The notes under the pieces are model-generated. The model saw only the letters and a list, made by a program, of their open reading frames with translations, ran no database searches and had not been told where the DNA came from. Of a DNA stretch of 54,197 bases, positions 5,307 through 36,753 are shown piece after piece; position 1 is the stretch's first letter; each line of letters starts with the position of its first letter. The stretch is from Fidelibacterota bacterium (GTDB lineage: Bacteria; Fidelibacterota; UBA8477; JABMPR01): positions 1-54,197 of the forward strand of contig JABMOS010000009.1 in NCBI GenBank assembly GCA_013203185.1, in the 5' to 3' direction. A program made the position numbers and the translations under genes.

Positions 5307-5878
5307 GTGAAATAAGAACTTTTCTCGCCTTCCCTATTCCCAAGGAAATCAAGGGCTACTTCAAAAACATGTTGGTGCCCATCATTGATAAGCAGGACAA
5401 AATTAATTGGGTCAAACGAGAGAATATTCATATCACGCTAAATTACCTTGGTGAAACGGACTCAGATAATATTGAAGAACATGCCAAACACATTGAGGCC
5501 GTGGTTCATGAGTTTCCTCCATTCAGGCTGGGGACTACAGATACTGGGATATACCCTCATGCAAATGCGCCCAGAGTGTTGTGGGTTGGATCTTCACCAT
5601 ATGATCTGACGCTAAGCTCATTTAAGCAAAAACTGGATACAAAATTAGCCCATTTAGGTTATACACTTGATAAACGTCAATTTCAACCGCATATTACGCT
5701 TGCTCGCGTCAAAACAATCTCACGCAAAAGCTCCTTTATCCATAAATTTCTAACTGCTGAAGTTCGAGAATTTGATTTTGAAGTGGATACAGTATTGTGG
5801 ATGAAAAGTACTTTGACGCCAAGTGGTGCAGAATATGAAGAATTGAAATCATTTAAATTTAATAGTGGAGGTCAGTGA
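5303..5878 (+). CDS. thpR: RNA 2',3'-cyclic phosphodiesterase (LigT/2H family)
   Basis: 2H-phosphoesterase of 191 aa. The two catalytic HxTx motifs are visible as HITL at residues 43-46 and a second HITL near residue 130 (in PHITLARV). Characterised members hydrolyse 2',3'-cyclic phosphates to 2'-phosphates on RNA ends. The N-terminus RTFLAFPIP matches the family. It sits between cinA and recA. Its stop TGA (5876-5878) shares one base with the recA ATG, and its last codons carry the recA ribosome-binding site. Confidence 0.93.
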
Positions 5879-6909
5879 TGAGTACTACTCAGGGGAAATC
5901 AAAAGATAAAGATAAAGCAATAGAATTAGCCGTCTCCCAAATTGAAAGACAATTTGGAGCAGGGGCTGTTATGAGGATGGGTGAAGACCAGATGAACCTG
6001 GCTGTAGAGGCCATTTCTACTGGAGCGCTGTCCCTGGATGCTGCCCTGGGAGTTGGTGGTGTACCCCGCGGGAGAATTATTGAAATCTACGGCCCAGAAT
6101 CGTCTGGTAAGACCACTCTGGCTCTCCACATCGTAGCCAATGCCCAGAAAACCGGAGGCTATGCTGCTTTCATTGATGCTGAACATGCACTGGACCCCAA
6201 ATATGCCAGTCAACTTGGTGTAGATGTCAAAAATCTACTTATTTCACAGCCTGATTCAGGTGAACAGGCATTGGAAATTACAGAAACCCTGGTTCGAAGT
6301 AATGCATTGGATGTCATTGTAATCGATTCTGTAGCCGCGCTGGTTCCACGGGCTGAGTTGGAAGGTGAAATGGGAGACAGCCATATGGGTCTCCATGCCC
6401 GTCTCATGTCTCAGGCACTCAGGAAATTGACAGGCGCAGTTTCAAAGTCAAACACCTCTGTCATCTTTATCAATCAAATCCGTGAGAAAATTGGTGTTAT
6501 GTTCGGAAGTCCTGAAACAACTACAGGTGGACGAGCATTAAAATTTTATGCTTCAGTTAGAATGGATATTCGCCGCATAGGGTCCTTAAAAGATGGTCAG
6601 GACAATATCGGTAATCGTGTTCGGGTGAAAGTGGTGAAGAATAAGATGGCACCACCATTTCGCGAGACAGAATTAGATATCATGTTTGGTAGGGGATTCT
6701 CTTTCGAGGGTGATATTTTAGATCTAGCCTTACAGGCAAATCTGGTTCAGAAAAGTGGATCATGGTTTAGCTATGGTGAAGAACGTTTGGGTCAGGGAAA
6801 AGAGAATGTTAAAAATTTCTTTATGGAGAACCCAGATCTTATGGCCAAAATAGTCGGTGAAGTTCGTCTCTTCCTAGGAATGGATACAGCAGACGAAAAA
6901 GCTGAATAG
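5878..6909 (+). CDS. recA: Recombinase RecA
   Basis: RecA (343 aa) forms filaments on single-stranded DNA, catalyses strand exchange and activates SOS repressor cleavage. Visible features are Walker [10 protein letters not shown], Walker [11 protein letters not shown], the loop L2 region with [11 protein letters not shown], and the N-terminal [15 protein letters not shown] chose ATG 5878 over GTG 5875 because GGAGGT at 5867-5872 gives proper spacing only for the ATG. The gene is at the end of an overlapping run starting at dnaX and is closed by a strong terminator at 6936-6970. The usual partner recX follows, but a small cassette separates them. Confidence 0.98.
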
Positions 6910-6935
6910 TCCCATGTAACAAATTAATGAATTAG

Positions 6936-6970
6936 TGGGCTGCCATAAGTAATGGGAGCCCATTTTTTTT
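6936..6970 (+). terminator. Rho-independent terminator after recA
   Basis: The stem TGGGCT (6936-6941) pairs with AGCCCA (6957-6962), and inside it CCAT (6943-6946) pairs with ATGG (6952-6955). Eight T residues follow directly (6963-6970). It lies 27 nt after the recA stop and closes the dnaX-recA transcription unit. Confidence 0.9.
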
Positions 6971-6974
6971 ATTC

Positions 6975-7003
6975 AACCGCAAAGACCACAAAGTTCGCAA
7001 AGA
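6975..7003 (+). repeat. Left array of three 9-bp CGCAAA units
   Basis: AACCGCAAA, GACCACAAA and GTTCGCAAA follow each other without spacing, giving a 9-bp period. The array starts five bases after the T-run of the recA terminator and ends 11 bases before the GxxExxY start codon. Its inverted counterpart lies at 7423-7449. Confidence 0.7.
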
Positions 7004-7013
7004 CTATTTAATT

Positions 7014-7399
7014 ATGAATGATTTCTCCGAGAATGAACTTTCTGAAAAGATTATCGGTGCGGCGATTGAAGTTCATAAGGAACTTGGCCAGGGCTACTAG
7101 AATCAGCATATGAAGCTGCACTATTTTTTGAATTGAACTCAATGGATCTTTTTGTACAGAAGCAGGTGCCCGTTCAAACTGTTTATAAAGGACAAAGTCT
7201 GGATATTGGGTTCAGGATAGATTTATTGGTGGAAGATAAAGTGGTCATCGAGCTAAAAGCGGTAGAACATATTTCAAATATTCATTTAGCTCAAACTCTT
7301 ACCTATCTAAAAATATGCAAGAAGAAGTTAGGCCTGATACTGAATTTCAATGTGAAGTATTTAAAATCTGGTATCAAGAGAGTGGTAAATGGACTATAA
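7014..7399 (+). pseudogene. GxxExxY protein (PDDEXK-like), frameshifted
   Basis: The 5' part from ATG 7014 reads MNDFSENELSEKIIGAAIEV..ELGQGY and stops at TAG 7098. From 7094 another frame continues LLESAYEAALFFEL and runs to 7399, with the family's IDLLVEDKVVIELK nuclease-like core and C-terminal LNFNV segment. Adding one C after 7089 restores the canonical ELGPGLLESAYE, so a single-base deletion has hit the name-giving GLLESAY motif. The restored product would be about 128 aa. There is no other stop in the downstream 100 codons, so the lesion is recent or is a sequencing error. ATG 7133 could give an 88-aa fragment, but that would lack the motif. The function of GxxExxY proteins is not established. 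Confidence 0.85.
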
Positions 7400-7422
7400 T
7401 TTAGAGCATGTAGTCGATACAC

Positions 7423-7449
7423 TCAGCGCTCTATGCGTATTTTGCGGTT
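7423..7449 (-). repeat. Right inverted array of three degenerate 9-bp units
   Basis: Read on the minus strand from 7449 this is AACCGCAAA, ATACGCATA and GAGCGCTGA. The first unit is identical to the outermost unit of the left array at 6975, and the following two keep CGC at the same position of the period. It lies between the GxxExxY stop and the recX start. Confidence 0.6.
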
Positions 7450-7475
7450 AACTAAGTATAATTGGTTTGTTGTTA

Positions 7476-8117
7476 ATGCCTAAAATTACCAAAATCACAC
7501 AACAGAAGAAACTCAGCGAGAGATTTAATCTTTTCGTAGATGGAAAATTTGAGCTTGGTGTTGACGGCTCACTCATCGTTAAGTACGATATCAAAGTCGG
7601 GGATGAGTATACAGAGAAACTCAAGCAATATCTCGAAAACGATGATCGCATCGAAATTGCCTATATCGGTTTGATCAACTTTATTGCCTTTCGAGAGAGA
7701 TGTGAATATGAAGTCAAGGAGTGGCTGTACAAAAAGAAATATGCAGATTTGGCAGATGAATTAATTACTCGCCTCACGGATCGCAACTATTTGAATGACG
7801 AACGATTTGCCAGATTATTCATAAAAGATCGCGTGAAGATCCAGGGCTGGGGTCCCATTAGATTAAGACACGAGTTGAATGCAAAACGAATAGCCAAACA
7901 GATTATTGAGTCTGAGATTGAAGCCATTTGTGAATACTTTGATTTCAATGAAATGGCCCACGATTTAGCTGAGCGAAAATTAAAAAATATAGCAAAACCA
8001 ACCTACAAAGATAAAAAACGATTGTGGAGCCTGCTCCAACGCCGAGGTTTCGAAGGTCCATCCATCACCTTTGCCCTTCAGAGCTATACCTTTGTCAGCG
8101 ATGACAAAACTACCTGA
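7476..8117 (+). CDS. recX: Regulatory protein RecX
   Basis: RecX (213 aa) binds in the groove of the RecA filament and modulates its activity. The protein shows three-helix repeats of the family, including LINFIAFRERCEYEVKEWL, the YLNDERFARLFIKDR segment and GWGPIRLRHEL. ATG 7476 is preferred to the in-frame TTG codons at 7467 and 7470; the Shine-Dalgarno is weak for all three. A TATAAT hexamer at 7458-7463 could be a -10 element, but no convincing -35 is seen. The cassette at 6975-7449 and the recA terminator mean recX is probably not read from the recA transcript. Confidence 0.9.
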   Translation: MPKITKITQQKKLSERFNLFVDGKFELGVDGSLIVKYDIKVGDEYTEKLKQYLENDDRIEIAYIGLINFIAFRERCEYEVKEWLYKKKYADLADELITRLTDRNYLNDERFARLFIKDRVKIQGWGPIRLRHELNAKRIAKQIIESEIEAICEYFDFNEMAHDLAERKLKNIAKPTYKDKKRLWSLLQRRGFEGPSITFALQSYTFVSDDKTT

Positions 8118-34287: not shown

Positions 34288-36753
34288 ATGAACGCAGACA
34301 ATCAATCAAATAAAAATCAGGAGAGAGGTCCTAAAAACCAGGATAATTCTCCTCGTCGTAACGAACGAAACCCTAATCAACGTCGCAGACCACCAAGAAA
34401 ACCCTATCCCAAAGCGGATAATCGCAATCAGCGAGATACTAGAGACAAGCAGGGCAACCGGGACAAAAGAGATTCTCGATCTAAGAATACACCCCGTCCT
34501 GAATCAAAACCGGTAAAAAAATCTACCAATATCAAGATTACACGTCCCTCAGAGGGGAATAACAACTGGCAAAAAGGTTTGAAAACTACTCTTTTATGGG
34601 TTGCCATACTCATGTCAGTATTTGTTTTTGCGCAGGTTTTAAAAACGGATACTGAGCATATCCAAAAATTGGGCTATACAGAATATAGGGCACTGCTTTT
34701 AGATGGCAAAATCGAAAGCGCTGTATTGAAGAAAAATCAATTCCATGGAACACTTAAGGCCCCTGAAACGACTGTCATAAACGATATTAGCAAAGATTAT
34801 ACGAAATTTTGGGTTGTGTTGTCTCCAACTATTGACAGTGATGTCACTGCAGAGTGGGATGCCATGGGTATTGTTTATGAATTCCAGGATGAGACCCGAG
34901 ATTGGGTAGACTATCTATTCCAGATTTTACCCTGGTTCCTCATCATTTTCTTCTGGTTCTTTATCATGCGCCGCATGCAATCAGGCGGTGGTGGAACTAA
35001 GGGGATCTTTTCCTTTGGTAAGAGCCGTGCAAAAATCATTGATCAGGAAAAACCACAGACCACGTTCAGGGATGTTGCCGGGTGCGAGGAAGCCAAGGAA
35101 GAGCTTAGAGAAATTGTTCAATATCTGAAGCATCCCAATCGTTTCCAAAAACTTGGCGGTAAGATTCCCAAGGGTGCTCTTTTGGTTGGACCTCCTGGAA
35201 CTGGAAAAACATTATTGGCGAGAGCCGTTGCCGGTGAAGCTGGAGTTCCTTTCTTTAGTCTTAGCGGTGCTGATTTCGTTGAAATGTTTGTTGGTGTTGG
35301 CGCCAGTCGCGTTCGTGATCTATTTGAGCAAAGCAAGAAAAGCGCACCTTGTATCATTTTTATAGATGAATTAGATGCTGTAGGTCGCCAACGAGGCGCA
35401 GGTCTAGGCGGTGGTCATGATGAGAGAGAGCAAACGCTAAATGCCCTCCTTGTGGAAATGGATGGATTTGAAGCCACTGACAATATCATTCTAATTGCCG
35501 CAACCAACCGACCTGATGTATTGGATTCAGCCTTATTGAGACCAGGACGTTTTGATAGGCAGATTTCCGTAGATAATCCTGATGTCCGTGGCCGTGAAGC
35601 CATTCTCAAGGTGCATTCCAAAAATATACCTCTAGCCAAAAATGTCCGCCTTGATATCATCGCCAAAGGAACTCCAGGAATGTCTGGAGCCGATCTGGCT
35701 AACCTTATTAATGAAGCGGCCCTGCTGGCATCCAAACACAGAAAACAACGTGTTGAGATGGTAGATATTGAGCATGCAAAAGACAAGGTCATGATGGGCT
35801 CTGAACGTCGTAGCATGGTTATCACTGAAAAAGAGAAGAGAACCACAGCGGTTCACGAGGCCGGACATGCATTGGTGGCCCGACTGACTCCTGGTACGGA
35901 TCCAGTTCATAAAGTAACTATCATTCCACGAGGCCGCGCGCTTGGTCTTACAGCTCAATTGCCCGTTGATGATCGCTATAATTTTTCAAGAGATTACATG
36001 GAAGGCATGCTGGCAATCCTGATGGGTGGTCGAGTTGCTGAGGAAGTGGTCCTGAACCAGATGACCACAGGTGCTGGGAATGATATTGAACGTGCAACCT
36101 CTCTCGCAAGAAAAATGGTGACTGAGTGGGGCATGAGCGAAAAAATGGGTCCCATGACTTATGGTCAGAAGAAAGAAGAAATCTTTATTGGCCGTGATTT
36201 GGGAGTGCACCGTGATTTCAGTGAAGACATTTCTAAAAAAATTGATGCTGAAGTTAGAAAGATCATTGACACAGCATATAAGAAAGCCAAAGACATCATA
36301 TCCAAAAACAAGGATAAGCTGGAATTGATTACTAATCTTCTCCTTGAAAAAGAGAGTATCGATGGTCGGCAGCTTGATGGGATTTTAGGATTAAAGTACG
36401 TTGATCAAAATCAGGTCAAGAAGGTAGATAATCCCCAGAGAAATCGGGGAAGATCCAATAACCCCAGATTCCGTTCTGACAATCCACGTCAAAAGCAGGA
36501 ACAGAACACACAAAAGCCTGAAGCCGCAACCCAACAAGCTTCAGAGCCTGAGGTGCCTACTGTTGATGCAACTGCTCCAGACAGTCCAAAGGTCTCACCT
36601 GTTGAAACTGAACCAAATAAAGCGGATGAAGGGGTTGAAAAACCTGCTCCCGTCAAGAAAAAAGCTCCTGTGAGAAGGAGACCTCCAAAGCCAAAGAAAA
36701 CAGCGGAGAGCGAGGGTTCTAAAGAGCCGACTCCAGAAGAACCGAAAGAATAG
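34288..36753 (+). CDS. ftsH: ATP-dependent zinc metalloprotease FtsH, with extended termini
   Basis: Membrane AAA+ protease (821 aa) degrading unassembled membrane proteins and regulatory substrates. Order: a basic, Asn/Arg/Pro-rich cytoplasmic extension of about 95 residues, a transmembrane segment ([17 protein letters not shown]), a periplasmic domain, a second segment ([11 protein letters not shown]), AAA domain with Walker A GPPGTGKT (301-308), the SRH, and the zinc site HEAGH (523-527). About 110 residues follow the protease domain, first basic, then Pro/Glu/Ala-rich and finally Lys/Pro-rich. The family norm is near 650 aa, so both extensions are unusual. It lies 9 bases after hpt. Confidence 0.96.

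Follow-up and report, generated by a model that had tools for sequence, protein, structure and literature searches.

A short block that separates recA from recX in a Fidelibacterota bacterium is probably a decayed copy of a small mobile element, which ends in arrays of short repeat units and would have been moved by its own predicted nuclease, a GxxExxY protein. In the window, which is the whole stretch of 54,197 nucleotides analysed, the locus is composed of the following features.

5875-6909, plus strand: recA, the left neighbour (PF00154, E 2.9e-140).
6937-6969, plus strand: probable recA terminator, GGGCT...GGGAGCCC plus a T-run (read from the sequence).
6975-7004, plus strand: left terminal array of three 9-bp units, outermost unit AACCGCAAA (sequence, TRF and genome pattern match).
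7014-7100, plus strand: N-terminal part of the GxxExxY gene, ended by a stop (TIGR04256, E 8.2e-4, profile positions 1-21).
7088-7399, plus strand: rest of the GxxExxY / PDDEXK_3 gene, read in a different frame (PF13366, E 4.4e-32; TIGR04256, E 2.3e-34).
7422-7449, minus strand: right terminal array of three degenerate 9-bp units, inverted, outermost unit AACCGCAAA (sequence and pattern count).
7467-8117, plus strand: recX, the right neighbour (RecX_HTH2 and RecX_HTH3 above their cut-offs; NF010733, E 7e-39, under its cut-off).

Profile searches identified recA, recX and comEC as the neighbouring genes, and the profile matches confirmed that the block splits recA from recX. Judging from its sequence, the hairpin at 6937-6969 probably serves as the recA terminator, and the element would start just downstream of it. 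In the left array, AACCGCAAA occupies positions 6975-6983, and the cores CGCAAAG, CACAAAG and CGCAAAG lie at 6978-6984, 6987-6993 and 6996-7002, respectively. On the minus strand, the cores of the right array lie at 7440-7446, 7431-7437 and 7422-7428 with a spacing of 9, and the outermost AACCGCAAA is the reverse complement of 7441-7449. The first-pass annotation, which was made from the sequence alone, had described three 9-bp units at each edge, in inverted orientation and with an identical outermost nonamer, and this description was correct, the right units being degenerate. It had also placed a single gene inside the block. The assignment to GxxExxY holds, with the 7088-7399 part scoring 118.2 bits against TIGR04256 (cut-off 35) and 111.3 bits against PF13366 (cut-off 22), but the gene is not intact: the 7014-7100 part reached 19.7 bits, under the TIGR04256 cut-off of 35, and a frameshift between the two parts breaks the reading frame.

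Triple CRC..A arrays with a period of 9, a motif taken from the wider family, were found in the 54-kb window only at 6978 (plus strand) and 7446 (minus strand). Mononucleotide shuffles of the window contained on average 0.005 and 0.025 triple arrays per window, and an inverted pair was seen in 0 of 200 shuffles. A search of the 3.07-Mb genome for CRCRRAKNNCRCRRAKNNCRCRRAK, the CRCRRAK triple, with up to two mismatches gave 8 matches versus 1 for the control, and the left array was the sole match with zero mismatches. Meanwhile, the generic inverted flank similarity of the window copy had a score of 10; of 1030 other positions compared in the window, 147 scored as high or higher. This weak similarity indicates that the right array is degenerate and makes the window alone unpersuasive. 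The case therefore rests on the GxxExxY family.

RecX was found in 50 of the 60 genomes searched, including the window's own, and 30 loci were retrieved. Five loci of the same genus (L012, L013, L014, L015 and L017) showed a clean junction, with recX 53-66 bp past the recA stop, and by eye a hairpin with a T-run resembling that of the window precedes recX in all five. L018 and L021 were also without the block, with gaps of 74 and 81 bp. By eye, the block with its arrays was recognised in the window (L008), L009, L016, L022 and L023, while L010 carried two internally deleted copies with both ends kept and L020 the right array alone. This makes 7 loci without the block, 6 with it (L010 entering as two deleted copies) and 1 with only the right array. 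The comparison of recA-recX loci recommended along with the initial annotation thus shows that the block is not present in all relatives.

On a RecA-RecX tree, with L010 and L020 scored as occupied and L019 unscored, the distribution of occupied and empty sites requires at least three changes, either gains or losses. The element copies at recA-recX mostly fall in one group, so this site may represent one old insertion with later losses. Additionally, a 13-row subfamily spanning four sites in the genus forms a single clade (SH-aLRT 99, quick method), which supports dispersal. Among the copies at recA-recX, an unbroken frame over the family profile was found only in L022/L054; the frame is interrupted by an in-frame stop in L009 and L016 and by a frameshift in the window and L023. 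The earlier reading of the block as a mobile unit with terminal inverted repeats is supported by this presence and absence, as well as by the enrichment across the family described below, except that the unit is element-specific and the window copy has decayed.

TIGR04256 matches were present in 16 of the 19 genus genomes, with 68 matches in total, some of which are pieces of broken genes. An inverted-flank score of 14 was reached by 22 of the 30 genus loci retrieved, and more loci had arrays by eye. The same layout was found across phyla when the best 80 of 580 GxxExxY loci from a contig scan were analysed, a set that covers many phyla and includes one archaeal record (L101). The period and inverted-flank tests were motif-free and admitted only loci with full flanks, which excluded 8 of the 80 loci of this first set, where flanks of 260 bp were taken. 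A self-similarity at period 9 that reached 14 of 18 or more was detected in 29 of 152 flanks versus 2 of 138 flanks taken 1000 bp off. Periods 10 and 8 were also enriched (17 and 12 versus 2 and 2), and the other periods from 6 to 13 showed no enrichment in the flanks. Inverted similarity of at least 16 was found between the own flanks of 46 of 72 loci versus 18 of 720 mismatched pairs; own flanks compared in direct orientation reached it in 16 of 72.

With the three same-genus loci L068, L070 and L097 left out, inverted flanks were present at the gene in 45 of 69 loci, and at 400, 800, 1200 and 2000 bp from it in 0/61, 0/57, 1/51 and 0/45, respectively. Whole-genome searches in 24 genomes revealed 103 GxxExxY matches, 1-11 per genome. 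From these, 40 mostly full-length places were picked, and 35 remained after four repeats of the first set and one place without full flanks had been dropped; they represent other sites in the same genomes. Inverted flanks were found in 22 of these 35 further copies versus 0/35, 0/34 and 0/34 at 400, 800 and 1000 bp. The control genes gave no inverted flanks (0 of 24 RecX genes and 0 of 169 further ORFs from these loci that are 100-200 codons long). Clear inverted flanks were absent in 24 of the 69 and 13 of the 35 loci. A tblastn search with one query found no match in phages, and the same single query matched 8 plasmid records. The expectation that inverted CGCAAA units would also surround other GxxExxY genes was met by a strong enrichment of arrays, but the unit is not always CGCAAA.

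The unit varies among elements even within the genus (CGCAAAG, CACGGAT, ACGAAT, CGCGGAT and others). A frequent core is CRCRRAK, and the spacing is 8-11 bp, most commonly 9 and 10. Units in the further set include CACTGAT, CACGGGG, ACAGGAT and CGCTAAC, and the left and right ends of an element agree. Strict CRCRRAK arrays stood on each side of the gene, oriented as expected, in 30 of 69 loci in the first set, where the counts are post hoc since the motif was derived from that set, and in 8 of 35 in the second; among the 69 loci, 10 of the left flanks and 8 of the right ones had strict arrays in the opposite orientation.

The array follows the protein. A score of 14 or more was reached by 115 of 143 elements, 110 of which are stop-free, and 90 elements outside the genus were used for Mantel tests. 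Protein identity was correlated with array similarity (Mantel 0.22, 0 of 2000 permutations), and the correlation was retained with GC, phylum and genome held (partial Mantel 0.23, 0 of 1000 permutations) and when only pairs from different phyla were taken (0.22, 3438 pairs). Moreover, the last base of the unit, read on the strand richer in units, is G in 49 and T in 29 elements and changes only four times on the protein tree of these 78 elements, versus a shuffled mean of 23.6, with 0 of 500 shuffles as low; the other 32 of the 110 elements, in which fewer than three units were recognised, were omitted. G-type and T-type clades both occur in the genus of the window. At an operon junction termed site A, the downstream gene was identified in 8 of 19 genomes, and 7 of these 8 carry a GxxExxY gene, whole or in part. 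By eye, these are T-type in L226, L228, L229 and L232 and G-type in L230, L231 and L233, the latter with a leftover T-type right array. The nuclease is thus co-inherited with its array, which it presumably recognises.

An AlphaFold2 model of the L097 protein, built from a 37-sequence alignment, had a mean pLDDT of 95. Foldseek ranked lambda exonuclease (E 1.6e-3) and the Cas4 protein SSO0001 (TM of at most 0.60 relative to the query) first among PDB structures; no PDB structural match was obtained for this model at E <= 0.001, so its resemblance to known nucleases is weak, and no solved relative was found by sequence at E <= 1. Among 46 sequences, D62 and K74 are invariant, and E22, E72, Q86 and Y90 are conserved in at least 90%; residues 86-90 form the QxxxY motif. 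The PDDEXK-like fold named in the initial annotation was borne out by the predicted model and the conserved E, D, ExK and QxxxY, and the modelled fold resembles a PD-(D/E)XK nuclease of the lambda exonuclease/Cas4 type. One of two proteins tested showed weak similarity to Cas4 (PADLOC, E 1.9e-4) and, in PHROGs, to a CRISPR-associated family (E 3.3e-6), and the second showed no Cas4 similarity. Of 11 pairs compared, 5 allowed an estimate of dS, and their dN/dS of about 0.03-0.12 indicates that the GxxExxY gene is under purifying selection.

In the window gene, PDDEXK_3/GxxExxY was the only match at E <= 0.001, and no transposase or recombinase domain was matched. The earlier remark that the block has no transposase may still be wrong in spirit, because the nuclease is the likely mobility enzyme. 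In one passage of PMC8934634, GxxExxY appears as an annotation remark. Our literature search found no role for GxxExxY proteins.

Array pairs also occur without a gene. Contig C154 of the window's own genome carries a palindrome of about 73 bp that consists of two arrays and a short loop, and its flanking genes are taken for gatE and gatD on the basis of their sequences. The genome of L140 has a gene-less element of about 130 bp with 19 matches, some of which are parts of one copy, and that of L135 has 46 array matches, including six gene-less inverted pairs 124-237 bp apart. In some gene-less copies of the latter genome (L275, L276, L257 and L258; G060), a central hairpin was seen by eye; the copies differ in the sequence of this hairpin and resemble each other in their end arrays.

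A search for the three-unit pattern that allowed one mismatch gave 278 matches in the 19 genus genomes versus 7 for the control and 1283 versus 11 in 24 other genomes. These counts take in the arrays of gene-bearing copies, long arrays may count repeatedly, and one genome contributes 590 of the 1283. This genome, Herpetosiphon llansteffanensis (G070, the genome of L089), has 590 three-unit CRCRRAK arrays versus 5 for the control, together with 2 GxxExxY matches. All 24 genomes were selected for having a GxxExxY gene, and three-unit CRCRRAK arrays with a period of 9 were absent from four of them. Three genus genomes lack a gene match, and they contained 0, 1 and 4 arrays, the one with 4 being 63% complete; the genus genomes with a match had 3 to 50. 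The number of gene matches was weakly correlated with array density (rho 0.46, p 0.045).

The orientation of neighbouring arrays was analysed in three genomes among the matches listed (27 of 27 in G071, 23 of 43 in G062 and the 71 zero-mismatch ones of 144 in G066, whose one-mismatch matches were omitted), with overlapping matches entered once. Within 700 bp, 30 of 34 neighbouring pairs were plus then minus, 2 were minus then plus, and 2 were plus and plus. Among the matches listed, the starts of the plus-then-minus pairs were 34-142 bp apart in 25 of 30 and 34-50 bp apart in 20 of 30, and at least 2 of the 30 hold a GxxExxY gene or part of one.

We propose that an intact element consists of one gene of roughly 120-130 codons, encoding a predicted PD-(D/E)XK nuclease, and on either side of it an array of about three short units, mostly with a CRCRRAK core or a relative of it and usually spaced 9-10 bp, the right array being inverted. 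The nuclease would bind the units of its own arrays and cut at or near the element ends, and repair or replication would put a copy elsewhere, without a target duplication of fixed length. Landing would be mostly intergenic and at times beside or within an older element, and gene-less array pairs might be moved in trans, giving rise to REP-like palindromes. The distribution of the elements points to such mobility, and a nuclease of so small a size probably needs host factors. Target-site duplications with a length k of 2-9 were sought in 77 elements, and at none of these lengths were they clearly commoner than between mismatched flanks; the highest results were 6 elements for k=4, where the controls peaked at 3-5, and a single element for k=9, where the controls gave 0.

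A homing or gene-conversion process, in which the nuclease cuts array-bearing sites and the cassette is copied in by recombination, so that the arrays are targets first and ends second, would agree with this result, as it would with the elements that lie, by eye, beside or within remnants of other elements in L039, L045 and L047. The junction at site A was used by elements of both deep clades, T-type and G-type, and this reuse by different subtypes leaves room for homing-like entry into old arrays. However, there are empty recA-recX sites that have no visible array, and many gene-less arrays lie at dispersed places, so the arrays themselves must spread. We consider this alternative unlikely.

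Inverted arrays flanking an ORF could also act at the RNA level, as in 23S intervening sequences: the arrays would pair in the transcript and the stem would be processed, with the protein or the stem protecting the host mRNA. A precedent is described in a portion of PMC4990558, where the Coxiella 23S intervening sequence has tandem heptamer repeats before an S23 ORF and is excised by RNase III. In addition, site A lies between two apparently co-transcribed genes. Pairing in RNA would favour G-U-compatible differences between left and right arrays, but sense versus antisense counts were 154 versus 144, with no real excess. The predicted fold is of a DNA-nuclease type, the unit type tracks the protein with phylum, genome and GC held, and no Rfam match was found in the window at 6600-7800 (E <= 0.5) or in ten further loci (gathering scores). 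An RNA element is thus very unlikely.

It is highly improbable that the arrays are REP-like palindromes moved by another enzyme, with GxxExxY genes as passengers or parasites caught between two of them. Whole palindromes do stand on both sides of the gene in L081, L104, L113, L120 and L140 (by eye), and arrays greatly outnumber genes in some genomes. Nevertheless, if the genes were passengers, one would not expect the unit type to follow the phylogeny of their protein across phyla, and two of the three nuclease-less genus genomes are nearly or entirely free of arrays, the incomplete third being the one with 4. A host or defence gene whose arrays serve as operators for autorepression, with no mobility, can practically be dismissed: the distance from the left array to the matched gene start is often about 100 bp or less and one protein weakly resembles Cas4, but the arrays are inverted on both sides, gene-less pairs and presence/absence at one site occur, and the decayed L010 copies retain both ends.

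The array-ended mobile element that we favour resembles several known systems. RAYTs are REP-associated tyrosine transposases, and REP/BIME sequences are small multi-copy palindromes that flank the RAYT gene. The elements described here likewise comprise small multi-copy palindromes and a gene flanked by them, in this case with no fixed target duplication, but the gene encodes a protein with a predicted PD-(D/E)XK nuclease fold instead of a tyrosine transposase, and the ends are tandem arrays with an element-specific unit and spacing. As in pairs of MITEs and insertion sequences, some elements have a gene and others do not, the ends are inverted, and presence/absence polymorphism is seen; unlike them, no transposase or recombinase domain was matched, the ends are arrays of about three units, and no target duplication was detected. 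The 23S rRNA intervening sequences with an S23 ORF also have one small ORF between inverted ends, but the protein is unrelated, the units are of 7-8 bp versus mostly 9-10 bp here, and those sequences sit in rRNA whereas the window block sits between recA and recX. With Cas4, lambda exonuclease and RecB-type nucleases, the protein shares the predicted fold and the E, D, ExK and QxxxY residues, but it has 129 residues versus 194-229 for the listed chains of Cas4 and lambda exonuclease, and it is flanked by arrays.

The intergenic TAACTGA direct repeats of Beggiatoaceae and others have, according to a part of PMC4679880, a period of 7 and an unknown origin, and a mobile repeat-binding protein was considered there. 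As far as that part describes them, they are not inverted-paired around a gene and are closer to the four-helix-bundle arrays described below than to GxxExxY arrays. A literature search by title and abstract start, mostly outside subscription journals and bioRxiv, found no description of elements such as these. We call the element categorically new in layout and protein type, and its working would be REP/RAYT-like or MITE-like.

GxxExxY proteins occur in many bacterial phyla and one archaeal genome, often several per genome. If they drive array-ended elements, they could explain many intergenic palindromes, such as those behind the arrays of the Herpetosiphon genome, and would offer naturally matched pairs of protein and DNA whose specificity changes. 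Moreover, the origin of rRNA intervening sequences would become testable.

A second family has the same layout. TIGR02436 four-helix-bundle genes (S23 family) were found in 18 of the 19 genomes searched. Among 30 loci of this family (L283-L312), inverted flanks were present in 17 versus 4 of 600 mismatched pairs and 0/29 and 0/29 at displaced positions. With a threshold of 14 of 18, 35 of the 60 flanks showed period 7 and 11 of the 60 showed period 8. S23-family genes therefore show the inverted-array layout of GxxExxY genes with units of 7-8 bp, and we propose a link between their arrays and the 23S intervening sequences, of which the Coxiella heptamers are an example. More tentatively, both families might belong to a phylum-spanning class of minimal mobile elements without a classical transposase, each consisting of a tiny protein and the inverted unit arrays it would read, the two diverging together. 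At least two unrelated proteins would be involved, the GxxExxY nuclease with units of 8-10 bp and the four-helix-bundle S23 protein with units of 7-8 bp, and the 23S rRNA intervening sequences would be members of the second branch that landed in rRNA. We regard this wider grouping as a reasonable possibility, held with less than even confidence.

Elsewhere in the window, a 21-bp tandem repeat of 2.1 copies is located at 34924-34967; it is unrelated to the array-ended block.
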